Below, piece after piece: positions 269 to 19,621 of a stretch of DNA of 64,000 nucleotides. The DNA is from a virus. Position numbers and translations under genes: made by a program. The stretch's first letter is position 1, and each line of letters begins with the position of its first letter. The stretch spans positions 1 to 64,000 of IMG/VR virus record IMGVR_UViG_3300031772_000002; one strand, written 5' to 3'. Under the pieces are notes generated by a model, which did no database searches, was not told the origin of the DNA, and saw nothing but the letters and a program-made list of their open reading frames with translations.

Positions 269-374
269 ATTATAGTTATACCAGATAATAAGGATTAATA
301 AATAAAAAATAAATTTTCGCATCTCCCTTCAAAATAAATTTGATTTTTTCAAATAAATGAAGTATATTAATAAT

Positions 375-1451
375 ATGAAACTGACACTTCAAATTAAACT
401 TCTGCCGACGAATGAACAATCAAAGAGTCTTGGGAAAACCCTGAAGGCTTGTAATGCCACTTGCAATGATATTTCTGAAACAGCATGGCAGACAAAAACA
501 TTCAATCAGTTTAAGCTTCATAATCTGGTTTACCATCAACAAAAAGAATTTTCGCATCTTACAGCACAAGCTATTGTTCGTTGTATTTCCAAGGTATCCG
601 ATTCTTATAAGCTCGATAAAAATGTTAAACGAATTTTCAGGCTTGAAGGTGGTATTACCTATGATTCCCGCATCCTTTCGTATAAAGAGAATGTTGTTTC
701 GATCTGGTCTGTCGATGGAAGATTGAAGATTTCGTTTGTCTGTCACAATCAGAAATATCTTCCTCACATTAAAGGTGAAGCCGACCTTATTACCAAAAAG
801 GGCAAATGGTTTCTTTTTCAGACCGTTGAAATACCAGAAGAAATTATACATAATATCGAAGAATTTATCGGAGTAGACTTTGGCATTATCAATATTGCCA
901 CGCTGTCTTCCGGTGAAATAATGTCCGGCAAAGAGCTTGAAACATACAGAGAAAAACGTCAGAAGATTCGTTCGAGTCTCCAATCCAAAGGCACAAAGGG
1001 CTGCAAAAAGGTCTTGAAACGGCTTTCGGGAAAAGAGAAACGAACAACTTCTATCGTGAATCACACTATTGCAAAGAAAATCGTTGCGAATGCTGTACAG
1101 GAAAATAAGGGAATTGCTCTTGAAAAGCTTAAAGGTATTTGCAAATCCGCCAATAATAAGGGAAAGAAATTTCGTTCCCGCGTTGGCAAATGGAATTTTG
1201 CAGACCTTCGGACAAAGATTGAGTATAAAGCAAAACTTAATGGCGTTCCTGTAATCGCCATTAATCCAGCATATACTTCGCAGACATGTTCTCATTGTCA
1301 TAATCTTGGTTCCCGAAACGGCGAATCTTTTAAATGTCCGCATTGTGGTTTTGAAACACATGCGGATGTTAATGCAGCTAAGAATATCGGGGCAGCTGTA
1401 AATCTGCCTGAAAAATCGGTTAAAGAACATAAGGTTCCTAATCAGGTTTAA
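375..1451 (+). CDS. tnpB: TnpB, RNA-guided nuclease of an IS200/IS605-type element
   Basis: TnpB proteins are RuvC-type endonucleases guided by an RNA made from the 3' end of the element. The full set of catalytic parts is visible, counting from the upstream ATG at 357: RuvC-I GVDFG (Asp174), RuvC-II ALEKLKG (Glu256), a zinc ribbon CSHC...CPHC (Cys311, 314, 327, 330) and RuvC-III HADVNAAKN (Asp337). The protein begins MKLTLQIKLLPT, the usual TnpB opening, so ATG 375 is preferred to ATG 357, which would add six residues. Length (358 aa) is normal. No TnpA transposase lies beside it, so the element is either mobilised in trans or fixed in the phage. A palindromic hairpin follows 2 nt after the stop. 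The nuclease is probably intact. Confidence 0.92.
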   Translation: MKLTLQIKLLPTNEQSKSLGKTLKACNATCNDISETAWQTKTFNQFKLHNLVYHQQKEFSHLTAQAIVRCISKVSDSYKLDKNVKRIFRLEGGITYDSRILSYKENVVSIWSVDGRLKISFVCHNQKYLPHIKGEADLITKKGKWFLFQTVEIPEEIIHNIEEFIGVDFGIINIATLSSGEIMSGKELETYREKRQKIRSSLQSKGTKGCKKVLKRLSGKEKRTTSIVNHTIAKKIVANAVQENKGIALEKLKGICKSANNKGKKFRSRVGKWNFADLRTKIEYKAKLNGVPVIAINPAYTSQTCSHCHNLGSRNGESFKCPHCGFETHADVNAAKNIGAAVNLPEKSVKEHKVPNQV

Positions 1452-2331: not shown

Positions 2332-5300
2332 ATGAATCTAAAGGAACAACAGACTCTTAATAAAATTCTTCAGATGACTAATGACGCTCGTGGAAATGTT
2401 TTATTAAATACAACTGTATCTGATACTGTAAAAAAAATTTTAAATTCTGTAGAAGATGATGATATAAAATTAAAAGTTAATAAAATTTTTGTTAATGAAA
2501 AATTTGATAATAAAGATATTGAATCTCAGATGACAGTAAGGAATAAAAATCAAATATGGGCAAATGATTTAAGAGCCGATCTTGAAATTATAGATAAAAA
2601 AACAGGCAAATCAATTGATAAAGTTCAAAATCTTAAAATTACTACAATTCCAAAAATAACCGATAGAGGAACATATCTTATTAATGGGAATGAATATGTT
2701 TTTACTAAACAGTCAAGACTTAAGCCCGGTGTATATACAAAAAGACAATCAAATGGTGAAATAAGTTCATTTTTTAATGTTGATAAAACTATAGATTTTG
2801 ATAGAGGATTTAATAATAATTTTAAATTGAATTTTGAACCGGAAACTAAAATATTTACAATGGGATATGGAAATAAAAATATTCCACTTATTAATGCTTT
2901 AAAAGTTATTGGAGTAAGTCCAAGTGAATTAATTAAAAAATGGGGACAGCAAGTTTACGATGCAAATTCTAAATCTTATGATAAGCATGAATTGAGGGAT
3001 CAGAATAAGTTATATGAAGCGGTTTTTGGAATTGCTCCTGCAAATAATATAAATAATGATACAATAAGAAGTCAAATAAAAGAAAGATTATTTGCGACAA
3101 ATCTTGATCCTGAAACAACAAAAATAACTTTGGGAAAATCATATACAAATGTTAATAAAGATGTTATTCTTGATGCGTCTAAAAAGATTATTGATATTAA
3201 TAAAGGTGAGATAGAATCTGATGATCGTGAATCTTTAGTGTTTAAATCTTTTTTTGATGTAGAAGATCATATACGTGAACGTCTTGTTAAAAACAGTAAT
3301 AAAATAATTAATAACATTAAGTATAAGTTAAAAAAAAATAAATTTATAAATAAATCAATTAGCGCTCAGTCTTTTGATCCTTTTGTTGTTGGAACAATTA
3401 CTACTAGTCAATTATCAACACCTCCTGAACAAACAAATATAATGTCTATTATCGGAGGGTCGTCTAAGTTTACTGTTATGGGAGAAGGTGGAATTGGATC
3501 AACAAATGCTATAACTAATGATATTAGAAAAATTTCTAATAGTGAAGTTGGATTTGTAGATCCTCTTCATACTCCTGAAGGGCAGGCTATTGGAGTTGCC
3601 GTTCATACATCTGTTGATACAATAAAGGTTGGTAATAATTTATATTCGAAAATGTTAAAAAAGAATGGTGAGAAAGTTCTTTTATCTCCTCAAGATGTTT
3701 GGGATAAAAATGTAGCATTTCCTGATGAATATGATGTAACTAAAAAGATTCCTGTTCCTAAAAATAATAAAATAAAAGTTGTAAATCAAGGAAAAATAAA
3801 AAGTGTTAACAGTTCTGATGTCGATGTAATAATAGCCAATCCTATTGGAATGTTTGATTCGTCTGTTAATATGATTCCATTTCTTAATTCTATTCAAGGT
3901 AATAGGGGATTGACTGCATCAAAAATGCAAGAACAGGCTCTTCCTTTAAAATATAGAGATAAGCCATTATTTAATATTGTTGATGAAAATGGAAGAAATT
4001 TTGGAAAAAATATTGCAAGCATTATAGCACTTCCCAAGTCTCCTGTTGATGGAATTGTTGAGGATGTTAATGAAAATAAAATTATTATTAAAGATAAAAA
4101 TAAAAATAAATATACTATTCAGTTATATAATAATTTTTCTTTAAATGGAGAGAGTTTTTTACATAATGAATCTAAGGTAAAAATAGGTGATTCTGTTAAA
4201 CAGGATGATGTTCTTGCCGATAATAATTTTACGAAAGATGGTAATATAGCTATTGGAGCTAATTTAAAAGTTGCTTATGTTCCTTATAAAGGTTATAATT
4301 TTGAGGATTCGGCTATCATTTCAGAGAGTGCTGCTAAAAAATTAACATCTGAACATATGTATGATTTTAAAACTAAAAGAACTTCTAATGGAGTTTTTTC
4401 GCGTGATAAATTTAAAGCATATTATCCTGAAGTATTACCATTAAATAAATCAAAAAAATTAGACAGCGATGGGGTTATTAAGGTTGGAGAAACGGTGGAA
4501 AGGGATGATGTTGTTATAGCTCATCTTGAAAAAAAATCACCTACGTCAGATGATATAATTTTAGGAAGGCTTGACAAGCAATTAAAAAGAGATATGTCTA
4601 ATAATGCTTTGCTATGGGATAAAGATGTAATAGGAGTTGTAAAAAAAGTTACTAAAAGTGGAAATAATGTAGTTGTTAATATAAAGACTGAAGAGCAGTT
4701 AAAGGTTGCTGATAAAATATCTGGATTACATGGAAATAAACATATCATTTCTAAAATTGTTCCTGATGATGAGATGCCTTATAATTTGGAAACTGGAGAA
4801 AAAATTGATTTAACAATGAGTCCTTTAGGAGTTTCAAATAGAATAAATACATCTCAATTACTTGAAGCTGCAGTGGGAAAATTAGTAAGTAAAACAGGAA
4901 AAACTTATGATATAAATAATTTTTCAGGGGAAGATAATTCTCGTAAAATTATTAGTGAGTTAAAAAAAGAAGGATTGTCTGATAAAGATATTTTAGTTGA
5001 TCCTGAAACTAAAAAACCGTTATTGAATCCTGTTGCTACTGGAACTGCTCATATTTTAAAACTTGAACATATTGTTGATCATAAATTTTCAGCTCGATAT
5101 AAAGATAGTTACGATGCTAATGAGCAGGCTGCTACTGGTGGTATAACAGGAGGAAAAAATTTAGGTAGAATGGAAATGGCTGCTCTATTAGCAAGAGGAG
5201 CTAATGAAAATTTAAGAGAAATGTTTCAGATTAAAGGTCAAAAAAATGATGAATATTGGAGAGCTATGGAAACCGGCCAAAGTCTTCCTCCACCTAAAAA

Positions 5301-8300
5301 ATCATTTGCATGGGACAAGATGTTGGCTATGATGTCAGGGGCTGGAATTAATGTTGAACAAAAGGGAAAAACATTTGCTTTAAAACCTATGACAGACAAA
5401 GATATTATTGAGATGTCTAGTGGAGAAATAACTAAACCTGAATTGTCATATCGTAAAAAAGACCTTGCTCCCATTAAAGATGGATTATTTGATCCTGTAA
5501 AAGCAGGAGGTTTGTATGGTAATAATTTTACTCATTTTAAACTTCCAGAACCTACATTAAATCCTATAACGACTTCAGCAACTGCAAATTTGTTAAATAT
5601 GCCTATTACTCATTTAGATAATATTTTAACAGGAAAAAAATTTATAGATAAGTCAAATGGTAAAATTGTTGAGCCTGGGTCTCCAAATTCTATATCAGGA
5701 GGGCCTGCAGTTAAACTTCTTCTTGAACGTATTAATGTAAAAAATGAACTTAAAAATGCTGAAGAAGATTCAAAAACAATAACCAATCCTACTGAACTTA
5801 ATAAGATACATAAAAAAATTCGTTATTTGAAATCGATTAAAGATAACAATATGAAACCTTCTGATTATATTATATCGAATGTTTTAGTTACTCCTTCAAA
5901 ATTTCGTCCTGTATTTCAAATTGGAACAGAAGGAACTGTTGTTGTATCTGATATTAATGATTTGTATCAACAAACCGCTTATACATCAAGTGCATTAAAG
6001 AATTTAAAAACAACTTTAGATGAATCTATTGATAATGAAGATATAAAAAATTTACAACTTGCAGAGGCTAGAGGGTCATTGTATAATGATTTAAAGGCTG
6101 TTGTCGGTATGGGTGATCCTACATCTTATTTGCATAAAGTAAAAAATAAGAAAGGATTTATTCCTCAAATTGACGGAGGCGCCACTAAACAAACTAAGGA
6201 AGGTTTTTTTCAGGATAAAGTTCTTGAACGTAGACAGGATTTAGTTGGAAGATCGACTATTATATTAAACCCTGAACTTGGCGGTGACGAATTGGGAATC
6301 CCCAAAATAATGGCTGGGAAAATTTTCCAGCCATTTATTATGAAGAAGATGGTTGAGTGGGGATATAAGCCCGTTGAGGCTCAGAAACTTATTAAGGATA
6401 ATGATCCTATATATCAGAGAGCATTACAGGTTGTAAGCGACGAGAGACTGGTTATAGCTAACAGGGCGCCTACATTGCATAGATGGAATATGACTGCATT
6501 TAAACCTAAATTAACTGATGGCAAATCTATTGAAGTTCCTGGCATAACAGTAGTAGAAAACATGGGTGGTGATTTTGACGGGGACTGTTGTTTTGGAGGA
6601 TTGTATATATCTATAGAAATTAATAAGTTAAATAAAGAAAATAAAAAAATTGATTTTGGAGATAAATTTTATAATAAATTTCTTGACACGGACAGTGAAA
6701 ATAGGTATATTAATACTAATGAACAATTTTTATTATTTATAAAATCATTGGAGGTTAATATGCCATGTCTTAATGAATTACCTGTTAATGTAAAAGATAA
6801 ATCAATACTTCATATTAATATTGCTGATTTTCCACGATTAACAGAAACTAAAGAAATAAAACAAAATGGTAATGAAATTTATAAAGTTCCTGAAGGGGTA
6901 TCTGTATTTTCTTTGGATAATGTTACTCATAAATTTATAGAACTTCCAGTTACTGAATTTTCAATTCATAAAAATATTTCAAATTATATAATTTTACTTT
7001 CAGATAGAAATGAATTATTACTTTCAAGTGATAAAAGTGCAATAGTATTGAATACAGATACTTTTAAATTAGAAAGTTGCTCTCCTAAAGATTTAATTGG
7101 AAAGGCAATTCCTAAAATTAAAAAAATTGAAATTAAACCATCATTGTTTGAAGTTAAATTAATTGATTATTCATTAAATAGTAAAAGTATAAAATGTAAA
7201 GATTCAATAGAATTAAATGAATCGGTTGGTCATTTTATAGGAATAATGATTGGTAATGGATGGATAAGTGATGATATGCGTATATGTATGGCTTCAGTAC
7301 ATGAAGATATAAAAAATCTTTTTAATGATACTATTAATAAAATGATGAAAGAAGATATAGGGATTTGTTCTATCGATTCTCCTCATTCATTTATGGGTTA
7401 TGATTGTTTTAGTACAAAACACACTAAAACAAGTATTTCTCTTGCACAAAATATTAAAATTTGGATTGGTCATTTGGCTAGAAATAAACATCTTCCTATA
7501 TTTTTTATGTCTACCTCAGAAGAGTTTCGTCTTGGCCTTCTATCCGGTCTTATAGATACGGATGGAACGTCTACATGGAACCATTCACAAGGTAAAAAAT
7601 CACAGTATATATTATTGTATTCTACGACGTCTGTACGTCTTGCGGAAGAAATAGTAACTCTTTCACGAACTCTTGGAATTTCAGCATCAATTACTTCTTC
7701 TGAACGTGATACATGTGTTGAGTATACTGTTGTATTTTCAACCCAAACTATTGTTGATAAAAAACTTAATTTTATAAATCCTGATAAAAAAGAAGCTTTT
7801 GAAAAATTTCAAGCAACAGGTGGCGAAACATCCGCTTCAATGGCTGCCAGACTTGATATGGTTCCTTTTAGTGATGATATGTATATAAAATTCAGGTTAC
7901 ATATAAAATCAAATAAATATCCTAACTTATATAGTTCAATGTATGATGCTGTAAATTCTGGATGTATATCAAGACCAACAGCTATTAAAATAATTACTAT
8001 ACTGCCTAAAGGTATTGCGGATGATAGATGGATTGAAATAGTTAATAATAAAAATATTACATGGGTATATGCTAAAAATATAGAATTAAATAAAGAACTT
8101 CTTACCATGTATGATATAACAGCTCCTGGTTCATATACGTTTATGTTAAATAATGGTATTATTTGTCAAGACACATTTCAATTACATGTTCCTATTTCGT
8201 CAAAAGCTTTACAAGAGGCAGAATTAATGAAACCCTCTGCCAGTATGCTTAAAACCGGTTATGATACAGTTCTTAATAAGCCATCTCTTGATATAACTGC

Positions 8301-10257
8301 AGGAAGTTGGCTTGTCTCAAAAGGTAAAGGTGGAAAAGAAACCAATTTATCTTTTAATAATATAGACGATGCTCGTGAGTCTTTTAAAAATAATAAATTT
8401 ACTTATGGTGACAATGTGACTATTAATAATATAAAGGCTCCATTTGGTATGCATGAAATTAATTCTATAGTTCCTGATGATATGAAAAAATATAATATAG
8501 AATTAACAAGTAAAAATACCGAAGGATGGATTCGTGACGTAGTAAAAAAATATAATGGAAAACAGGCACTTGCCCTTGCGGACAAGATTAAAGATGTTGG
8601 AAATAATTATGTTACAACTTATGGATTGACATTAGGAGTATCAGATACCATTATTGATAAAAAATTTAAAGATAAATTAGTGTCTGATGCATGGGAAAAT
8701 GTTAGTAAGGATGATAGTTCTTCTATTGTTAAGTCATTTAATGAAGCGGTATCAAAAGGTATTAAAAAATTAGAATCTGATTATGATGAAAACACTATGG
8801 TTGGTATTGGTTTAAAATCAGGAGCAGGTAAAGGTATAAGTAATTTTGCATCTATAGCATTAATGCCTGGAATAGTTACGGATATAGATGGAGCCGCTGT
8901 TCCTGTTCCAATTACTAAATCTTATTCTGAAGGACTTAATACTTCTCAATATTGGGCCGCAGCTCATGGGGCAAGAAGTGGAAATATACAGAAATCAGTA
9001 CAATCGTTTAAGCCGGGATGGTTAACAAAAGATCTTACTAATTCTATTTATGAAACAAGAATTAACAGTGAAGATCCTGTCGATACGGTTGGTTTTGAAT
9101 TTAATATTGATGATAAGAAATCTATTATTAATAGATATTTGGCAAAAGACGTTAAAGATACTCATGGAAAAATTCTTGCAAAAAGAAATGATCTTGTCAA
9201 TAGTGATCTTGTAAATAAATTGAACAGTCATAAAGTAAAAAATATATTTGTACAATCACCTATTACCGATCCAACTCCAGGTGATGGATTTTCAAGTTAT
9301 TCTTATGGAGCTGATTATGATGGAAAATTACATAATATAGGTGATAATATAGGAATTATTTCCTCTCATACAATAACCGAACCTTCATTAAAATTAGCTA
9401 TGAAGGCTTTTCATACAGGAGGAACTGTAGCCGCAGGAAAAACTGGATCTGCATTTGATGTATTGGAAAGAGTCTTAAGATTTACTACAAATATACCTAA
9501 CAAATCAACCCTTGCAAGTATTGATGGGATAGTAAAAAATATTATTAAATCTCCTATTGGCGGATGGGATGTTGTATTGCAAAATGATAAAAAAGAAGAC
9601 GTTCATTATATAGATCCTAATACTGAGCTGCTTGTTAAAAAAGGTGATAAAGTATTTATGGGTGATAATATTTCAACAGGAACAACAAGTGTGCATGATG
9701 TTTTAAAATATAGAGGATTTAAAGACGCTCAAAAATTTCTTGTAAAAGAAATAAATAATATTAATGAAGGAAAGCTTGATTCAAGAGATATCGAGACTGT
9801 TGTTAGAGGTATAACGAATACAACAAGAATATTACATCCAGGATCAAGTACATACGCCCCTTATGATGTTGCTCCATTAACAACTGTAGAATATTATAAT
9901 AACAATAATAATAAAGAAGATGATATTGAAAATACTGAAGGCGATCATTTATCTCAAAATTATGGCATATACAAAAAAAATACTAAAATTACAAATAATA
10001 TTATTGAAGATTTAAGTAATAAAGGAGTTAAAAGAATAAATATTTTTAAAGATAAAATTAAACATGAACCATTTTTAACTCCTGCAGGAATAAGCGCAAA
10101 GGCTCAAACAAGCGAAGATTGGATTTCACGATTAGCACATAATAGAATAGCAAAAGTTCTTGAAGAAGGAACAACTCAGGGATTTAAAAGTGTTATTGAT
10201 CCTAATGTAGGAAATCCAATTACTCAACTTATTACAGGGGAATATGGAAAAAAATAA
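2332..10257 (+). CDS. Fused RNA polymerase beta-beta' subunit with intein
   Basis: One 2641-codon frame carries the hallmarks of both large bacterial RNA polymerase subunits in the order beta then beta'. Beta motifs: an HTPEGQAIG segment, then AYVPYKGYNFEDSAIISE, DKISGLHGNKHIISKIVPDD, SPLGVSNRINTSQLLEA, and GGKNLGRMEMAALLARGA. Beta' motifs: KFRPVFQIG...DINDLY, FFQDKVLERRQDLVGRS, VIANRAPTLHRWNMTAFKP, the metal-binding DFDGD at residues 1414-1418, a bridge-helix region SEGLNTSQYWAAAHGARSG, and a trigger-loop region LKLAMKAFHTGGT. An intein (residues 1419-1947) interrupts the frame right after DFDGD; removal would leave about 2112 residues, well below the roughly 2700 of bacterial beta plus beta'. 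Jumbo phages usually split these subunits, so the fusion is unusual. It would be a phage transcription enzyme; whether it is packaged in the virion cannot be told. The upstream ribosome site is weak (AGGA). Confidence 0.95.
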   Translation: MNLKEQQTLNKILQMTNDARGNVLLNTTVSDTVKKILNSVEDDDIKLKVNKIFVNEKFDNKDIESQMTVRNKNQIWANDLRADLEIIDKKTGKSIDKVQNLKITTIPKITDRGTYLINGNEYVFTKQSRLKPGVYTKRQSNGEISSFFNVDKTIDFDRGFNNNFKLNFEPETKIFTMGYGNKNIPLINALKVIGVSPSELIKKWGQQVYDANSKSYDKHELRDQNKLYEAVFGIAPANNINNDTIRSQIKERLFATNLDPETTKITLGKSYTNVNKDVILDASKKIIDINKGEIESDDRESLVFKSFFDVEDHIRERLVKNSNKIINNIKYKLKKNKFINKSISAQSFDPFVVGTITTSQLSTPPEQTNIMSIIGGSSKFTVMGEGGIGSTNAITNDIRKISNSEVGFVDPLHTPEGQAIGVAVHTSVDTIKVGNNLYSKMLKKNGEKVLLSPQDVWDKNVAFPDEYDVTKKIPVPKNNKIKVVNQGKIKSVNSSDVDVIIANPIGMFDSSVNMIPFLNSIQGNRGLTASKMQEQALPLKYRDKPLFNIVDENGRNFGKNIASIIALPKSPVDGIVEDVNENKIIIKDKNKNKYTIQLYNNFSLNGESFLHNESKVKIGDSVKQDDVLADNNFTKDGNIAIGANLKVAYVPYKGYNFEDSAIISESAAKKLTSEHMYDFKTKRTSNGVFSRDKFKAYYPEVLPLNKSKKLDSDGVIKVGETVERDDVVIAHLEKKSPTSDDIILGRLDKQLKRDMSNNALLWDKDVIGVVKKVTKSGNNVVVNIKTEEQLKVADKISGLHGNKHIISKIVPDDEMPYNLETGEKIDLTMSPLGVSNRINTSQLLEAAVGKLVSKTGKTYDINNFSGEDNSRKIISELKKEGLSDKDILVDPETKKPLLNPVATGTAHILKLEHIVDHKFSARYKDSYDANEQAATGGITGGKNLGRMEMAALLARGANENLREMFQIKGQKNDEYWRAMETGQSLPPPKKSFAWDKMLAMMSGAGINVEQKGKTFALKPMTDKDIIEMSSGEITKPELSYRKKDLAPIKDGLFDPVKAGGLYGNNFTHFKLPEPTLNPITTSATANLLNMPITHLDNILTGKKFIDKSNGKIVEPGSPNSISGGPAVKLLLERINVKNELKNAEEDSKTITNPTELNKIHKKIRYLKSIKDNNMKPSDYIISNVLVTPSKFRPVFQIGTEGTVVVSDINDLYQQTAYTSSALKNLKTTLDESIDNEDIKNLQLAEARGSLYNDLKAVVGMGDPTSYLHKVKNKKGFIPQIDGGATKQTKEGFFQDKVLERRQDLVGRSTIILNPELGGDELGIPKIMAGKIFQPFIMKKMVEWGYKPVEAQKLIKDNDPIYQRALQVVSDERLVIANRAPTLHRWNMTAFKPKLTDGKSIEVPGITVVENMGGDFDGDCCFGGLYISIEINKLNKENKKIDFGDKFYNKFLDTDSENRYINTNEQFLLFIKSLEVNMPCLNELPVNVKDKSILHINIADFPRLTETKEIKQNGNEIYKVPEGVSVFSLDNVTHKFIELPVTEFSIHKNISNYIILLSDRNELLLSSDKSAIVLNTDTFKLESCSPKDLIGKAIPKIKKIEIKPSLFEVKLIDYSLNSKSIKCKDSIELNESVGHFIGIMIGNGWISDDMRICMASVHEDIKNLFNDTINKMMKEDIGICSIDSPHSFMGYDCFSTKHTKTSISLAQNIKIWIGHLARNKHLPIFFMSTSEEFRLGLLSGLIDTDGTSTWNHSQGKKSQYILLYSTTSVRLAEEIVTLSRTLGISASITSSERDTCVEYTVVFSTQTIVDKKLNFINPDKKEAFEKFQATGGETSASMAARLDMVPFSDDMYIKFRLHIKSNKYPNLYSSMYDAVNSGCISRPTAIKIITILPKGIADDRWIEIVNNKNITWVYAKNIELNKELLTMYDITAPGSYTFMLNNGIICQDTFQLHVPISSKALQEAELMKPSASMLKTGYDTVLNKPSLDITAGSWLVSKGKGGKETNLSFNNIDDARESFKNNKFTYGDNVTINNIKAPFGMHEINSIVPDDMKKYNIELTSKNTEGWIRDVVKKYNGKQALALADKIKDVGNNYVTTYGLTLGVSDTIIDKKFKDKLVSDAWENVSKDDSSSIVKSFNEAVSKGIKKLESDYDENTMVGIGLKSGAGKGISNFASIALMPGIVTDIDGAAVPVPITKSYSEGLNTSQYWAAAHGARSGNIQKSVQSFKPGWLTKDLTNSIYETRINSEDPVDTVGFEFNIDDKKSIINRYLAKDVKDTHGKILAKRNDLVNSDLVNKLNSHKVKNIFVQSPITDPTPGDGFSSYSYGADYDGKLHNIGDNIGIISSHTITEPSLKLAMKAFHTGGTVAAGKTGSAFDVLERVLRFTTNIPNKSTLASIDGIVKNIIKSPIGGWDVVLQNDKKEDVHYIDPNTELLVKKGDKVFMGDNISTGTTSVHDVLKYRGFKDAQKFLVKEINNINEGKLDSRDIETVVRGITNTTRILHPGSSTYAPYDVAPLTTVEYYNNNNNKEDDIENTEGDHLSQNYGIYKKNTKITNNIIEDLSNKGVKRINIFKDKIKHEPFLTPAGISAKAQTSEDWISRLAHNRIAKVLEEGTTQGFKSVIDPNVGNPITQLITGEYGKK
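6586..8172 (+). mobile_element. LAGLIDADG intein inserted after the RNAP catalytic DFDGD
   Basis: This is a 529-residue in-frame insertion (residues 1419-1947 of the host frame). The N-end is CCFGG; the C-end is a block like those of inteins, YDITAPGSYTFMLNNGIICQD, followed by Thr as the +1 nucleophile. Two LAGLIDADG helices are visible: GHFIGIMIGNGW (1633-1644) and LGLLSGLIDTDG (1734-1745). Joining DFDGD to TFQLHVP restores the expected spacing to the HVP of RNA polymerase beta', which fixes the junctions; the second Cys as residue 1 would leave one extra residue. The C-terminal pair is Gln-Asp in place of the usual His-Asn. Asp-ending inteins are known and can splice, so activity is likely but not certain. 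Confidence 0.88.
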
Positions 10258-12013: not shown

Positions 12014-12604
12014 ATGAAATTTGTGCCACTAAGAAAAGCGATGGAATATTATGGTCAATGTGATAAAACAATCAGAAAATATGCGGAAAATGGAAACATT
12101 AAAGCAAAACGACTCCATTCTGGAAGATGGTTGTTTGACATCGACTCTTATGAAAAGCCATCCAAACAATCAACAATTTGCTACTGTCGTGTATCCTCAA
12201 TCAAGCAAAGAGACGATTTGGTCAGGCAGGTCGTCTTTATGCGAGAACAATTTCATAATGCAGAAATCATCCAGGATATTGGATCTGGACTTAACTACAA
12301 AAGAAAAGGGCTTAACTCCATTCTGGAACGACTTTTGCAAAGAGAAAAGCTTACAATTGTGGTTGCCTACAAAGACAGGCTTGCAAGGTTTGGAACAGAA
12401 CTTATCGAGTTCCTTATCAAGCAAAATGGTGGAGAACTCCTGGTTCTCAACCAATTGGTACATTCCCCCGAAAGAGAGCTTACCGAAGATCTACTCGCCG
12501 TTCTCACAGTATTTTCATGTCGAATGCATGGACTTAGAAGATATAAAAAGCAAGTCGAAGAAGATCCGGATTTACCCAAACCAGAATCAAAAGTCAATAT
12601 TTAA
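12014..12604 (+). CDS. tnpA: IS607 transposase, serine recombinase
   Basis: The N-terminal 45 residues form a MerR-like winged helix (PLRKAMEYYGQCDKTIRKYAENG) that picks the DNA. The catalytic domain follows: CYCRVSSIKQRDDLVRQ with the nucleophile probably Ser61, then VVAYKDRLARFG with the second arginine cluster near 122-125. The C-terminal part ends in a helix without the large DNA-binding domain of invertases, normal for IS607 TnpA (196 aa). AAAAGGA lies 8 nt before the ATG. The end overlaps the tnpB start in another frame by 77 nt. It appears intact. Confidence 0.92.
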   Translation: MKFVPLRKAMEYYGQCDKTIRKYAENGNIKAKRLHSGRWLFDIDSYEKPSKQSTICYCRVSSIKQRDDLVRQVVFMREQFHNAEIIQDIGSGLNYKRKGLNSILERLLQREKLTIVVAYKDRLARFGTELIEFLIKQNGGELLVLNQLVHSPERELTEDLLAVLTVFSCRMHGLRRYKKQVEEDPDLPKPESKVNI

Positions 12605-13646
12605 AAACTGGTTTGGGGCTGCAAGATTTTCTTTTAATCAAGCTTTTGCATATTTAAAAAACCCAGAGACTAAAGCAAATTGGATGTCTATTAAGGGCGA
12701 ACTGTTAGAAGCTCTCCCAGAATGGTCAAACAAAATTCCATATCAAATTAAATCAATAGCCATTAAAGATGCATGTACCTCAGTTTTGAATGCTAAAAAG
12801 AAATTTGCTATCACGCATGAATTTCAAGATGTGTCTTATAAGTCAAGGAAAGACACCAAACAATCATGCTATATTCCAAAGAGTGCAATTTCTGAATTGG
12901 GAATTTACCATTCAAAAATTGGTGAATTAAAATTTACAGAAAATATTCCTGACAATTGGTGTGACTCAAGGTTAACAAAAGAAAATGGTAGATATTATGT
13001 CTGTATACCACATAAGGTTCAATTACCCTCTATATGCGATAACCAAGCTAACAGGGTAGTTGCTCTCGATCCTGGTGTAAGAACATTTATAACTTTTTTT
13101 TCGGAAAATAGTTGTGGAAAGATTGGAGAAGGATGTTTTAAGAGAATTTTTAATTTATGCTTAAAGATTGATAAATTGCTATCGTCTTTAAGTAAAGAGA
13201 AACTATTCTTTAAAAGATGTAGAATTAAATCTTTAATAGGTAGAACAAAATGGAAGATTAAAGATTTAATTTCTGAACTCCATTTTAAGACAGCTAATTT
13301 TCTAGTCAAGAATTTTGATATTATTTTACTTCCAACTTTTGAAGTGTCAGATATGGTTGACAAATCAAAAAGAAAAATATCTTCGAGAACGGCTCGTAAT
13401 ATGCTGTCATTATCTCATTACAAATTTAAACAGATTATTAAATTTGTAGCTAATAATAATCATAAATTTGTTATTGACGTTAATGAAGCATATACATCAA
13501 AGACCGTGTCATGGACTGGTGAAATAATAGAAAACTTGAATGGAAATAGAGTTATAAAAAGTAACTTTGATGGACAAGTGATGGATCGAGATTATAATGG
13601 TGCTCGTGGAATATTTCTACGAGCACTACGGGGAGATACACCTTAA
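12528..13646 (+). CDS. tnpB: IS607 TnpB nuclease with a lost zinc ribbon
   Basis: The start is taken as ATG 12528, inside the end of tnpA; the frame is open further upstream but that part only mirrors tnpA. The 372-aa protein has RuvC-I VVALDPGVRTF (Asp181), RuvC-II LPTFEVSDM (Glu272) and RuvC-III MDRDYNGARGI (Asp355). The region that normally holds two CxxC pairs reads AYTSKTVSWTGEIIENLNGN, so all four zinc cysteines are gone although the flanking TSKT and DRDxN motifs are kept. In the family the ribbon helps fold the nuclease end, so activity may be lowered, or this is a ribbon-less lineage. The catalytic residues argue against simple decay. Confidence 0.88.
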   Translation: MDLEDIKSKSKKIRIYPNQNQKSIFKNWFGAARFSFNQAFAYLKNPETKANWMSIKGELLEALPEWSNKIPYQIKSIAIKDACTSVLNAKKKFAITHEFQDVSYKSRKDTKQSCYIPKSAISELGIYHSKIGELKFTENIPDNWCDSRLTKENGRYYVCIPHKVQLPSICDNQANRVVALDPGVRTFITFFSENSCGKIGEGCFKRIFNLCLKIDKLLSSLSKEKLFFKRCRIKSLIGRTKWKIKDLISELHFKTANFLVKNFDIILLPTFEVSDMVDKSKRKISSRTARNMLSLSHYKFKQIIKFVANNNHKFVIDVNEAYTSKTVSWTGEIIENLNGNRVIKSNFDGQVMDRDYNGARGIFLRALRGDTP

Positions 13647-15927: not shown

Positions 15928-15958
15928 TAAAAAAAACTCCCGTGTCGAATACGAGAGT
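15928..15958 (-). terminator. Rho-independent terminator of the RT operon
   Basis: On the minus strand a stem (ACTC and CGT pairing with ACG and GAGT, one bulge each side) is followed by eight T residues. It lies at the end of the reverse-transcriptase operon and just after the folded RNA at 15975-16097. Confidence 0.7.
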
Positions 15959-15974
15959 AAGAATTATCAGACAA

Positions 15975-16097
15975 TACCTGGCTGGGGTCGGGGCCAGACA
16001 GGGATCTTAACCTGTATGGCCCTGCACGAACTTTTATAAAAAGTTCGTGAACAGGCAGGTAATAGAAATTGTTCCACTTTAAACTAAAGTGGAACAA
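15975..16097 (-). ncRNA. Structured RNA with three-way junction, downstream of RT operon
   Basis: Between the last gene of the operon and its terminator lies a GC-richer stretch that folds on paper into a three-way junction. P1 is TACCTGGCTG (15975-15984) with CAGGCAGGTA (16052-16061), one mismatch. P3 is GGGCCA (15991-15996) with TGGCCC (16017-16022), extended by ACAGG/CCTGT (15998-16002, 16011-16015). P2 is an 11-bp stem (16025-16035 with 16039-16049, loop ATA). A separate 13-bp hairpin (16069-16081 with 16085-16097) adjoins. Every helix is near perfect in otherwise 27% GC DNA. By analogy with retrons, P1 could serve as the a1/a2 pairing of an msr-msd RNA, but the canonical position is upstream of the RT and no conserved branching AGC is seen after P1. 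It could also be a processed 3' UTR element or a double terminator. Confidence 0.6.
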
Positions 16098-16113
16098 TGA
16101 ACTAATTACCTAC

Positions 16114-16329
16114 TTAGTTGGGCGATTCACCCAACTTAGAATCTTTACTTTTACTAAGATTCTTTCTTCTGAATTCTTTTTTTATATTTTTAATTTCTTT
16201 TACTTCATTTGAAATGGTGTTGCTATTGTCAACAATAGCATCTGCCAAATCAAATATAGTATCGGTAATTTTTTTTACGTGTTTAATTATTTTTTTAGCA
16301 TTAGGAGTTTTGTAATCACTTTTATTCAT
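16114..16329 (-). CDS. Small basic protein of the RT operon, 71 aa
   Basis: The ATG lies inside the end of the RNase H gene (8-nt overlap), so the two are translationally coupled and this is a real gene. It is lysine-rich and helical: a first helix (KKIIKHVKKITDTIFDLADAIVDN), then EVKEIKNIKKEFRRKNLSK. No domain is recognised. A small charged helical protein could bind the RNA or DNA product of the operon. That is inference from position and charge. Confidence 0.6.
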   Translation of the reverse strand: MNKSDYKTPNAKKIIKHVKKITDTIFDLADAIVDNSNTISNEVKEIKNIKKEFRRKNLSKSKDSKLGESPN

Positions 16330-16807
16330 GTGGACTTCTTTTAATGAAATCTTTTGCTATACGATCAACTTCTTGATTATTTTTATCATCCCCATGACCT
16401 TCAACCCATTTAAATTTAACAGTTTTAAATTCTAAAACTAATGAATATATTTTTTTCCACAATTTTTTATTTAATAAAGCTTTTCCATTGGATTTTCTCC
16501 AACCATTATTTGCCCATTCTATAATATAATCATTCCAATTTTCAGTTACATACTGAGAATCGCTATTAATAATGCAATCATGATCTTTTATTAATGATTG
16601 TGATGACCGTAAAAATTTTTTTAATCGTAATAAACTTCCTATTACTGCAATCAATTCCATTTGATTATTTGTTACATTGATACGGAATCCACCACCTTTC
16701 ATAATTTTTCTATAATTTAATATAATTATATATCCGTATCCTCCTTTGCATTCGCTATTTAATCTGTTTCCAGAACATGCTCCGTCTGTATATATTTCAA
16801 AAATCAT
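16322..16807 (-). CDS. rnhA: Ribonuclease HI
   Basis: Cuts the RNA strand of RNA-DNA hybrids. All catalytic residues of the HI family can be matched: IYTDGACSGN (first Asp), NNQMELIAV (Glu), INSDSQYV (second Asp), VEGHGDD (His) and NQEVDRIA (last Asp). Length (161 aa) is typical for a stand-alone enzyme with no hybrid-binding extra domain. The ATG overlaps the reverse-transcriptase stop by 4 nt. In retron biology the host RNase HI trims the template RNA from the cDNA; here the phage carries its own copy in the same operon as the RT. A general replication role, such as primer removal, is also possible. Confidence 0.95.
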   Translation of the reverse strand: MIFEIYTDGACSGNRLNSECKGGYGYIIILNYRKIMKGGGFRINVTNNQMELIAVIGSLLRLKKFLRSSQSLIKDHDCIINSDSQYVTENWNDYIIEWANNGWRKSNGKALLNKKLWKKIYSLVLEFKTVKFKWVEGHGDDKNNQEVDRIAKDFIKRSPHE

Positions 16808-17874
16808 TTGGCCCCCTTTGTCTTAAGGCCAAATTTTTCTTTTTCAAACTGTTTTAATTTTTCCATATATTTTTTACCTTGATAAGCATCAATAGACATT
16901 AAGTATGATGCCCATCCTTTTAATTTTCTTAACATTTTTTTAGTAGTTTGATCTGGATTTTTTTTTGTTGCATTATGAACTTTTGCTCTAAAAATTCTTA
17001 CATCGTATCTGGGGACTGATGTTTTTACATTAACTATTATTCCGCATGTTTTGAGTCTTCCAGATTTAGATTTAAATTTAGTTTTTTTCTTATTGGGTCG
17101 CAGTTTGTAAGCCCACAATTGTTGATATGCTAAATTTTTTACTTGTTTTTCAAGTTCGATTTTATTAATAGTTTTACTGGAAAAAGTTAAGTCATCAGCG
17201 TATCTGGTGTATACTATATTATTTTTTTCACAATGTTCAAGTAATTTTTTATCAAAACCTCTCATAATGAGGTTTGCAAGAATTGGTGATGTTGGAAATC
17301 CTTGAGCGCAAAATCCATTATAAGTACAGATATCAATTACTCGTGTCATTAATGATTGGTATCCTGTTTCGATACAATATTCAGGAATAAATACGGCTTT
17401 AATTTCTTCGCATTTAAATTCATAATCTTTTAATTTATTATGATACAATGACGGATTGCATCCATTTTCAAGCATTCTATCATAAAATTTACAAAACCTA
17501 CAAATTACTTTGTTTCCAAAAAGACAATTTTTTAAATGATCTTGAGATATTGAATCAAAAAAATTTTTTATATCTATCTTTCCTAAAGACATTGCTCCTA
17601 CGTGCAATCTTGCGTTTGTTACAATGCCCCTCTTATTAACAAATCCATGAGCTGCATCGCTTGGTTTATATTTTTTTAGAAATTTCCAATAAATACTTTT
17701 TTGTATATATTTTAATTTATTATCAGGAGCAATTATATTTCTTAACGATCCGTCACTTTTAGGTATATTCATTCTTCTTATATGTTTATCTTTATTTGCA
17801 ATGATTTCATCAATTTCATCTATTGATGAATTCATAAAGTATTGAATGTCGAAATTACTATTATCCTTGAACAT
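16804..17874 (-). CDS. Retron-like reverse transcriptase
   Basis: RNA-directed DNA polymerase of 356 aa. Motifs: IPKSDGSLRNIIAPDNKLKY (about 37-56), AAHGF (74-78), NARLH (87-91, the NAxxH of retron region X), LGKIDIKNFFDSI (97-109, first catalytic Asp101), QGFPTSPILANL (191-202), YTRYADDLTFS (222-232, catalytic YADD 225-228) and LKTCGIIVN (250-258, like region Y of retrons). QGxPTSP rather than an SQ box argues against a diversity-generating RT; no maturase domain or endonuclease follows, which argues against a group II intron. Between motifs 3 and 4 is an insert (about 122-168) with CRFC and three more cysteines, which may bind zinc. The gene overlaps its upstream DHH gene by 14 nt and the downstream RNase H by 4 nt. 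Confidence 0.9.
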   Translation of the reverse strand: MFKDNSNFDIQYFMNSSIDEIDEIIANKDKHIRRMNIPKSDGSLRNIIAPDNKLKYIQKSIYWKFLKKYKPSDAAHGFVNKRGIVTNARLHVGAMSLGKIDIKNFFDSISQDHLKNCLFGNKVICRFCKFYDRMLENGCNPSLYHNKLKDYEFKCEEIKAVFIPEYCIETGYQSLMTRVIDICTYNGFCAQGFPTSPILANLIMRGFDKKLLEHCEKNNIVYTRYADDLTFSSKTINKIELEKQVKNLAYQQLWAYKLRPNKKKTKFKSKSGRLKTCGIIVNVKTSVPRYDVRIFRAKVHNATKKNPDQTTKKMLRKLKGWASYLMSIDAYQGKKYMEKLKQFEKEKFGLKTKGAK

Positions 17875-19042
17875 CTCCAGTCTCCTTTTTATCTATTTTT
17901 TTAACAGCTTGTTCGCGTGCGTCATCAATAGTGATTTCTTTATTTTCAGATGATGCTTGTTTAACTATTTCATTAGCTTTTTTTTCAACTGAATCTTCTT
18001 TGTCAACTGCATATTTTTCCATACTAATATCTTCTCCTTCATTTATATAAGTTGTTATTTGATTTAAAAATTTATCTAAATCACCAATTTTCAATATTGC
18101 TCCTCCAACTTTTTTATGCCCACCTCCTGATATAGGATATGAAAGATCTGAAAGAAATTTACCAATATTAAGATCGTATCTAAATTCAACCCATGGATTA
18201 GCTCCTATTTCACAATGAATAGATTCTTCTCCATGATTTATAATTCTAATAGAATAAGGAAGGTCTTGATTGACAAAAAATTCAGAATATCTAGGATATT
18301 CATATAATGAATTACAGTATATTATTCCTATATTAATATTTTTAACTATATTTTTTTCAATTTTTAAAGCTCTTTTTTTTAAATTTAAAACTTCTGAATT
18401 ATCTATATTCATCGAAAATAATAGATCATCAATATCAAAATCATATTTAACTATATTTTCAACTATACGACAATATGTATTATCAATATATAATTTCATA
18501 TTTTCAAGGTATGCTCTTAAAATCATTAATGGATGTAAACTATTGAAAACAGAATTTACATTAGTATAATTTGCAGAATCAATCATATCTATAATATTAA
18601 TATCATCAATAAAATTGTTGATTACATCTAATTTATTTGATTGATTTTTTATTATATAATTATATAAAACTCGTGTTGCGGATTTTTCACCTATTGAGTA
18701 TATAATATGTTTTTTATTATATATTTCTATTAATTCATTAGTTGTTTTATCGGTGAACTCTTTGTTTTGATGATGATCAATCCATATATTACATAAATCG
18801 TTGTATTGGTAATCAATGATTATAATATTTGGATTTATATTTTTTAAACAGATTTCTTTAATAAATGAATTAAATTTAATTCCTCTCATTGATGTTTTGA
18901 CAGGGCATAATTTGATTGGAAAATTTTTAGTGTCATTTTCAATAAAAGATTTAATAAATATGGCTGATGTGTATATGCCATCCATATCATCATGAAAAAA
19001 AATATAGTGTTTCTTTTTATTACAATAATTTTCTAATCCCAC
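17861..19042 (-). CDS. DHH/DHHA1-family phosphoesterase (RecJ/NrnA-like)
   Basis: Motifs of manganese-dependent DHH phosphoesterases: FFHDDMDGIYTSA near residue 20, IIIDYQYNDL near 80, WIDHHQNKEF near 93, and the DHHA1 substrate motif SGGGHKKVGGA near 310. Family members degrade single-stranded DNA (RecJ), short RNA (NrnA) or cyclic dinucleotides. A lysine- and glutamate-rich tail of about 50 residues follows the DHHA1 motif. The start is set at GTG 19042 because GGAGG stands 5 nt before it; an ATG at 19054 would overlap that ribosome site and has none of its own. First gene of the RT operon. A role in trimming or removing RT products is inferred from linkage. Confidence 0.88.
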   Translation of the reverse strand: MGLENYCNKKKHYIFFHDDMDGIYTSAIFIKSFIENDTKNFPIKLCPVKTSMRGIKFNSFIKEICLKNINPNIIIIDYQYNDLCNIWIDHHQNKEFTDKTTNELIEIYNKKHIIYSIGEKSATRVLYNYIIKNQSNKLDVINNFIDDINIIDMIDSANYTNVNSVFNSLHPLMILRAYLENMKLYIDNTYCRIVENIVKYDFDIDDLLFSMNIDNSEVLNLKKRALKIEKNIVKNINIGIIYCNSLYEYPRYSEFFVNQDLPYSIRIINHGEESIHCEIGANPWVEFRYDLNIGKFLSDLSYPISGGGHKKVGGAILKIGDLDKFLNQITTYINEGEDISMEKYAVDKEDSVEKKANEIVKQASSENKEITIDDAREQAVKKIDKKETGDVQG

Positions 19043-19068
19043 ATGTTCCTCCATTTGTTAGTAATAAA

Positions 19069-19102
19069 TAAAAAAAAAGAGAATCAGACGAATCTAATTC
19101 TC
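19069..19102 (-). terminator. Intrinsic terminator upstream of the RT operon
   Basis: GAGAAT (19079-19084) pairs with ATTCTC (19097-19102) and on the minus strand is followed by about nine T. It would stop, or attenuate, minus-strand transcripts coming from the 345-aa gene before the DHH gene. Confidence 0.6.
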
Positions 19103-19106
19103 TCTT

Positions 19107-19621
19107 TAAAAATCTTCTATATTTGTTATTACATAATAATTATGAAAATAACATTTTTTTTTGTTTATAATTAAAAAAAAAAAAATAATAATAATATAAC
19201 ATAATATTATAAAAAGCATGCCAGTTCAATTAAAATCATTGAATACAGAACTGGAAACTCTATCTTGCATTTAAACATCTATGCAGAAGTCTTTGCTCTT
19301 TATATTACATATTTTTATATCCTACCCCTATATACCTTTCGATATATATTTTTTTTTAAATTATAATAATAAAACGGGGTAGGCCGTGATATTATTATTT
19401 TTACCTTTAACCTTGTTATATTTATAATGTTGGGTTAAAATCAACATTATAAACCTGTTAGTGAACAGGAACATTTAACCAGTGATATACATGCTTTAAG
19501 TAGGTTAAACGTACTCATTATTGTTATACCATATTTTTGTAAAAAATAACATAATAGTTAACTACTTAAGAACCAGGGATCTTCGTACTTTAGGTTAAGG
19601 AATGGTCAATCAATTAATATT
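19107..19621 (-). other. 515-nt non-coding, hairpin-rich region
   Basis: No credible gene on either strand. Seen structures: a 12-bp inverted repeat (19421-19432 with 19442-19453), a CCTGTT/AACAGG stem right after it (19454-19469), CCAGTTC (19221-19227) with GAACTGG (19248-19254), and TGCAT/ATGCA pairings near 19266-19284. GGTTAA or its complement occurs about five times (near 19405, 19434, 19475, 19503 and 19593). It could hold an untranslated RNA read with the minus-strand operon, a long leader, or a binding array. A retron-type RNA would be expected on this side of an RT operon, but none of its diagnostic parts could be proven by eye. Confidence 0.45.

Follow-up and report, generated by a model that had tools for sequence, protein, structure and literature searches.

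A phage-lineage operon linking a retron-type reverse transcriptase with RNase HI, a DHH-family protein and a candidate template RNA

The current view of retrons is that they protect bacteria against phages, and the examples described on phage-like elements are accessory insertions in prophages and satellites. Here we describe an operon of the virus record IMGVR_UViG_3300031772_000002 (IMG/VR; 164,446 bases), positions 1–64,000 of which form the 64,000-nucleotide (nt) stretch analysed here (the window), that is probably a retron belonging to the phage itself. Four minus-strand open reading frames (ORFs) between 16114 and 19054 encode a DHH/DHHA1 phosphoesterase (17861–19054; 397 amino acids (aa) from an ATG at 19054), a retron-type reverse transcriptase (RT; 16804–17874) with a zinc-finger-like four-cysteine insert, an RNase HI (16322–16807) and a small basic protein (16114–16329), and neighbouring ORFs overlap end to start by 4–14 nt (19054–17861, 17874–16804, 16807–16322 and 16329–16114). 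The 3′ end of the last gene overlaps the start of a candidate template RNA (msr–msd; 15958–16179, minus strand). Direct reading of the sequence places terminator-like hairpins with T runs on the same strand at 19105–19070, between an upstream stretch and the DHH gene, and at 15958–15929, the 3′ end of the operon. Before the DHH gene, a promoter-like element matching a consensus (GTTATTTT-N13-TGTAATAAC; 19113–19152, minus strand) would start the transcript, and a similar copy is found at the equivalent place in the relatives inspected. A first-pass annotation, made from the letters of the window, had already described four overlapping minus-strand genes flanked by terminators, and all of them lie where it placed them; it missed the conserved structured RNA and an internal start within the DHH gene.

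The RT is retron-type. Motifs named by the first-pass annotation (AAHGF, QGFPTSP, YADD and LKTCGIIVN) are present, and the protein matches Pfam RVT_1 (3.3e-20), PADLOC models for retron RTs (lowest value 3.5e-63, RT_XIII being the best) and, below that model's curated cut-off, the NCBIfam retron St85 RT (1.2e-61). Its AlphaFold model (predicted local distance difference test score (pLDDT) 84.6) has retron RTs as its top 18 structural matches in the PDB, with Ec86 (Eco1), whose RT fold and motifs it shares, ranked first. The RT is nearer to retron RTs than to those of defence-associated RT (DRT) systems, group II introns or diversity-generating retroelements (DGRs). In a 153-row tree, built by a quick method and rooted at its midpoint, 17 phage RTs form a single group among the retron-type RTs (Shimodaira–Hasegawa-like approximate likelihood-ratio test, 99) with no bacterial sequence inside; thus, although RT_XIII and St85 RTs give the best profile matches, the phage RTs form a tree group of their own. 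The four cysteines of the insert (C125, C128, C139 and C155) are invariant across 12 aligned members of this clade, and their pattern matches 16 of the 17 phage RTs and none of the remaining RTs in the tree, a pattern suggestive of zinc binding. Bacterial genomes yielded no member of the clade among their 80 top-ranking matches (each at 33% identity or less), and there was none in the INPHARED phages, in which the best RT match reached 31% and the DHH protein had no match.

Relatives of the phage were collected mainly through its terminase, which returned 19 related IMG/VR contigs (58–98% identical); one more was found with the DHH protein. Scans of viral contigs with the RT or DHH protein singly gave zero or two relatives, and the rest came from the terminase and from a scan with an RT alignment, which added L071–L074, L081 and the deeper L082–L084. 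The genes for DHH, RT and RNase H occur in the same order in 14 of the 14 sufficiently long phage records, the window included, and the unit is thus not a chance arrangement. Seven other records are fragments of 5–14 kb, whose length and terminase position place the region beyond their reach. The genes were not found apart from each other in the relatives, and the RT does not fall in a known class with a different function.

In the relatives as in the window, a structured RNA lies downstream of the RNase H gene and the small ORF, just before the terminator. A covariance model (R2) built from seven other phages, with the window excluded, detected the window RNA (63.8 bits, E = 4.3e-16) and six further held-out phages at the operon 3′ end, and found nothing else at E ≤ 1 across 458 kb of sequence, bacterial retron loci among it. 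This held-out model is the independent test; a model of all 14 sequences recovers those 14 by construction. The RNAalifold consensus of the 14-sequence alignment has four paired elements: a closing a1/a2 stem, two stem-loops (1 and 2, the latter with a loop of 3 nt) and a CCTG/CAGG stem. In the window, all on the minus strand, the a1 arm (GAATTCAGA) occupies 16168–16176 and is followed by a predicted branching G in an invariant column (16166, counted from 16179), by msr stem-loops 1 (16138–16163) and 2 (16116–16136), and by a predicted msd (template) region of three hairpins (15972–16115), close to the 3′ end of which lies the conserved element CCCCGACCCCA (15983–15993); the a2 arm (TCTGATAATTC) occupies 15961–15971. 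Both the G that ends a1 and the sequence CCCCGACC are invariant in the alignment. Stem-loop 2 has an 8-bp stem and a 3-nt loop in 14 of 14 sequences, with an invariant closing G–C pair; the loop is AAU in the window and UUU in many relatives. Region Y of the Ec86 RT binds an 8-bp stem with a 3-base UUU loop (PMC6868368).

Comparative statistics on the same 14 sequences point to a maintained structure. Both sides have changed in 19 of the 25 base pairs, and covariation is 0.607 compared with 0.262 in shuffles, none of 500 of which reached the observed value. Paired positions amount to 86.6%, versus 69.4% in shuffles and at most 47% when the structure is slid along the alignment, a control that leans towards the structure because the structure was derived from the same sequences. 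The element CCCCGACCCCA occurs once in the window and the virus record holds no second copy of the template RNA sequence. A DGR, which likewise brings an RT and a template RNA into phages, was therefore rejected: here the RNA is single-copy, with no variable-repeat copy, and the RT matches retron RTs. The first-pass annotation had named 15.9–16.1 and 19.1–19.6 kb as places to look for complementary DNA. The structured RNA, at 15.96–16.18 kb, lies within or overlaps the first of these intervals; a template RNA in the second, upstream of the DHH gene, was rejected, as most relatives have a small ORF or dissimilar sequence there.

By analogy with retron biochemistry, the operon would be read as a single transcript of DHH, RT, RNase HI and small protein ending in the template RNA. 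That RNA would close on its a1/a2 stem, and the RT would bind the msr stem-loops and copy the msd from the a2 side, primed by the 2′-OH of the conserved G after a1 (G16166), giving a 2′–5′ linkage. RNase HI would remove the copied RNA and help to set the end of the product, a multi-hairpin multicopy single-stranded DNA (msDNA) held by the RT. The complement of the conserved element, TGGGGTCGGGG, would lie in the 5′ part of this msDNA and may be a site at which a protein binds. The phage RNase HI is a clear family member (Pfam 4.2e-27), with all four catalytic acidic residues aligned in the window copy, and its presence fits published retrons, in most tested examples of which host RNase H1 sets the ends of the RT-DNA (PMC8989520). 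The small basic protein, an ORF of the same kind being present at the equivalent place in relatives, keeps its position but little of its sequence, and has no convincing family match. We consider it very likely that the operon is a retron that makes msDNA, and likely, by a slightly smaller measure, that a retron belonging to the phage explains the locus as a whole.

Several results weigh against this interpretation. The msDNA is a product predicted from the genes and the RNA sequence. No Rfam retron family, a set that covers described families only, matches the window or seven relatives. Standard retrons have their template RNA 5′ of the RT, but here it follows the operon on the 3′ side; we treat this as a variant rather than an exclusion, because variations in retron layout have been described (PMC6868368). 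Full-length covariance models missed L017, L082 and L083: in the first two, folding alone shows a shorter RNA that keeps an a1/a2-like stem and a stem-loop with UUU, and no template RNA was found in L083. The first-pass annotation had further proposed a self-contained machine to make and trim an RNA–DNA product. In the window RT, RNase HI and DHH do stand together, but no RNase H was found in L082 or L084, which keep the RT and a template RNA, and that of L012 (4738–5412, minus strand) has lost the catalytic residues while the RT and template RNA are retained. The absent Rfam matches and the predicted status of the msDNA would also suit a 3′ regulatory or processing element from which the RT makes no msDNA. 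We judge this very improbable, since the RNA bears the set of retron marks in the correct order and the RT, as above, is closer to retron RTs than to those of DRT, group II or DGR elements.

Sequence profiles identify the first protein of the operon only faintly (Pfam DHH 0.0042 and DHHA1 0.0019, both below cut-off), and its class is better seen in its motifs and predicted structure. The DHH catalytic motifs and the DHHA1 GGxH motif are present and are invariant in 11 relatives. The AlphaFold model (pLDDT 81.7) finds as its best PDB match the pGpG phosphodiesterase PggH (E = 4e-15), and its nearest folds are PggH, 3′-phosphoadenosine 5′-phosphate (PAP) phosphatase and the archaeal RecJ2, with template-modelling scores that are moderate by query length (0.48–0.55). 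The fold resembles that of small-nucleotide hydrolases and does not by itself distinguish between an oligonucleotide, a cyclic nucleotide and PAP as substrate; trimming of the cDNA by this enzyme, as the first-pass annotation supposed, is a conjecture. It shares fold and catalytic motifs with PggH, PAP phosphatase and NrnA/NrnB, but is 15–17% identical to the best folds, is encoded with a retron and has an extra conserved C-terminal tail (MEKY.VD...). This tail begins at an invariant Met, which in most relatives is preceded by a Shine–Dalgarno-like sequence, and it is a separate ORF in L082 and L084. An internal start may thus yield a separate peptide from the DHH C terminus (MEKYAVD...; 17861–18022, minus strand); this nested gene is a candidate only, because an acidic linker could also give rise to GAGGAG codons. 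At the other end of the gene, a GTG at 19042 with GGAGG in front of it is an alternative DHH start.

Within the proposed retron, the targets of the DHH enzyme would be small nucleotides or oligonucleotides, which it would break down: either a defence signal or the short RNA left by RNase H. It might instead be an independent counter-signal enzyme that degrades the nucleotide signals, cyclic or linear, with which host defences work, and that has only its transcript in common with the retron. DHH phosphodiesterases of jumbo phages have been proposed to act in this way (PMC7824862), and the nearest folds, PggH and PAP phosphatase, would suit such an activity. The DHH and RT genes are, however, never separate in the relatives and overlap, or nearly so, in most of them, which suggests but does not prove a joint function, and we regard independence of the DHH enzyme as possible but doubtful. 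This alternative is compatible with a phage-owned retron, and for that reason the confidences that we attach to the various explanations do not sum to one.

The operon keeps a constant site in this lineage of large phages, on the opposite strand between the gene g13731 and the gene g20754 followed by the terminase, and L081–L084 also retain the flanking genes. The terminases have diverged by up to about 49%, and pairwise distances of the RT and DHH proteins follow those of the terminase, g20754 and g13731 (r = 0.82–0.92; 0 of 2,000 permutations). Together, the correlation with core genes and the fixed site show that the operon has been inherited with the phage. Given the module's constant genomic position, we think that the msDNA–RT complex may serve the phage during infection, a proposal to which we give an even chance, conflict with host defences being the most likely setting. 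In the same balanced terms, the lineage may have recruited a retron permanently, together with an RNase H and a nucleotide hydrolase of the phage, to make msDNA for its infection cycle, be it in counter-defence, replication or packaging. The proposed purpose is speculative; counter-defence is our leading guess, ranked before the exclusion of rivals and before housekeeping roles.

Core-like conservation between g13731 and g20754–terminase could also be read as the mark of a housekeeping function, with the msDNA–RT complex taking part in replication priming, DNA packaging or virion assembly. Against that, the operon faces the other way from its neighbours and has a promoter-like element and terminators of its own, its RNA is single-copy in the record, and we know of no retron that serves any of these functions; such a role seems to us distinctly unlikely. 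The operon might alternatively be a phage-carried defence retron against competing phages or satellites, in which the RT–msDNA complex restrains a toxic effector, the DHH or the small protein, until a rival disturbs the msDNA and sets it free. In known retrons an effector does accompany the RT and msDNA, and phage proteins act as triggers (PMC12548924). The DHH protein, its gene adjoining that of the RT in all relatives, would be the best effector candidate, but the PADLOC effector models match none of the DHH, RNase H and small proteins. Moreover, the operon is present in every checkable relative and is inherited vertically, and defence cargo is typically sporadic. A defence retron is thus an unlikely explanation, if one to be kept in view, and we favour a retron that works for the phage's own infection.

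Comparison with described elements places the novelty in the partners and in the mode of inheritance. Ec86 shares with the phage RNA the a1/a2 stem, the conserved G and a stem-loop with a UUU-type 3-nt loop (PMC6868368, PMC8989520). In Escherichia coli C its RNA lies just upstream of the RT, whereas that of the phage system is 3′ of the operon, and the phage system differs further in its own RNase HI, its DHH and small basic partners, the Cys4 RT insert and its fixation in a phage lineage. The retronphage phiR73 (Ec73) also carries its retron on a phage-like element (PMC6868368), but as an accessory insertion, in contrast to the constant site found here in every checked relative and to descent that tracks the phage tree. 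The first-pass annotation knew of no retron type with this partner set, and the open literature that we searched, the main retron typing survey lying outside its scope, likewise yielded no phage-core retron and none with a DHH protein or its own RNase H. The partner set is thus apparently new, and retron-like working is well supported; production of msDNA, which would settle membership among the retrons, is predicted from the known systems. If the interpretation is correct, the part played by retrons extends beyond bacterial immunity, and a role of msDNA beyond holding a toxin becomes directly testable. An RT that is supplied together with an RNase HI and has a compact template RNA could also be of use for producing single-stranded DNA in cells.

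Other features of the region were observed in passing. The stretch upstream of the operon (19106–19550, minus strand) has no long ORF, a promoter-like element at one end and a terminator at the other. It contains CCTACCCC...GGGGTAGG as well as a hairpin whose loop is GAAA, is not conserved at the equivalent place in relatives and is possibly a second small RNA. The promoter-like element GTTATTT-N-TGGTATAACTATAAT recurs at 305, 19152, 19550, 49208 and 60965 of the window (minus strand), nearly all copies being on that strand, and may belong to a phage polymerase. A 2,641-aa ORF at 2332–10257 (plus strand) has matches to the beta subunit of phage RNA polymerase (phrog_3295, 2.7e-23), and an RNA polymerase in the form of a single long chain is therefore probably among the products of the phage. 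In L020, a tRNA-like sequence lies directly 3′ of the retron (4517–4581, minus strand; Rfam tRNA 39.7 bits, no ARAGORN call).

A second group of phage contigs (L086, L087, L089, L091–L095 and L097), some reaching 210 kb, carries a retron-type RT about 30% identical to that of the window. Its neighbourhood, named by eye, comprises an AAA/MoxR-like ATPase, a VWA-like protein, the RT, a small ORF and mostly a radical-SAM-like protein. We do not claim the gap after the RT as a template RNA in this group, as it reads as coding in the contigs inspected by eye. Adjoining g13731 in the window, an IS607-type resolvase is followed by an overlapping TnpB-like ORF (12014–13646, plus strand), and a second TnpB-like gene lies at 357–1451 (plus strand).

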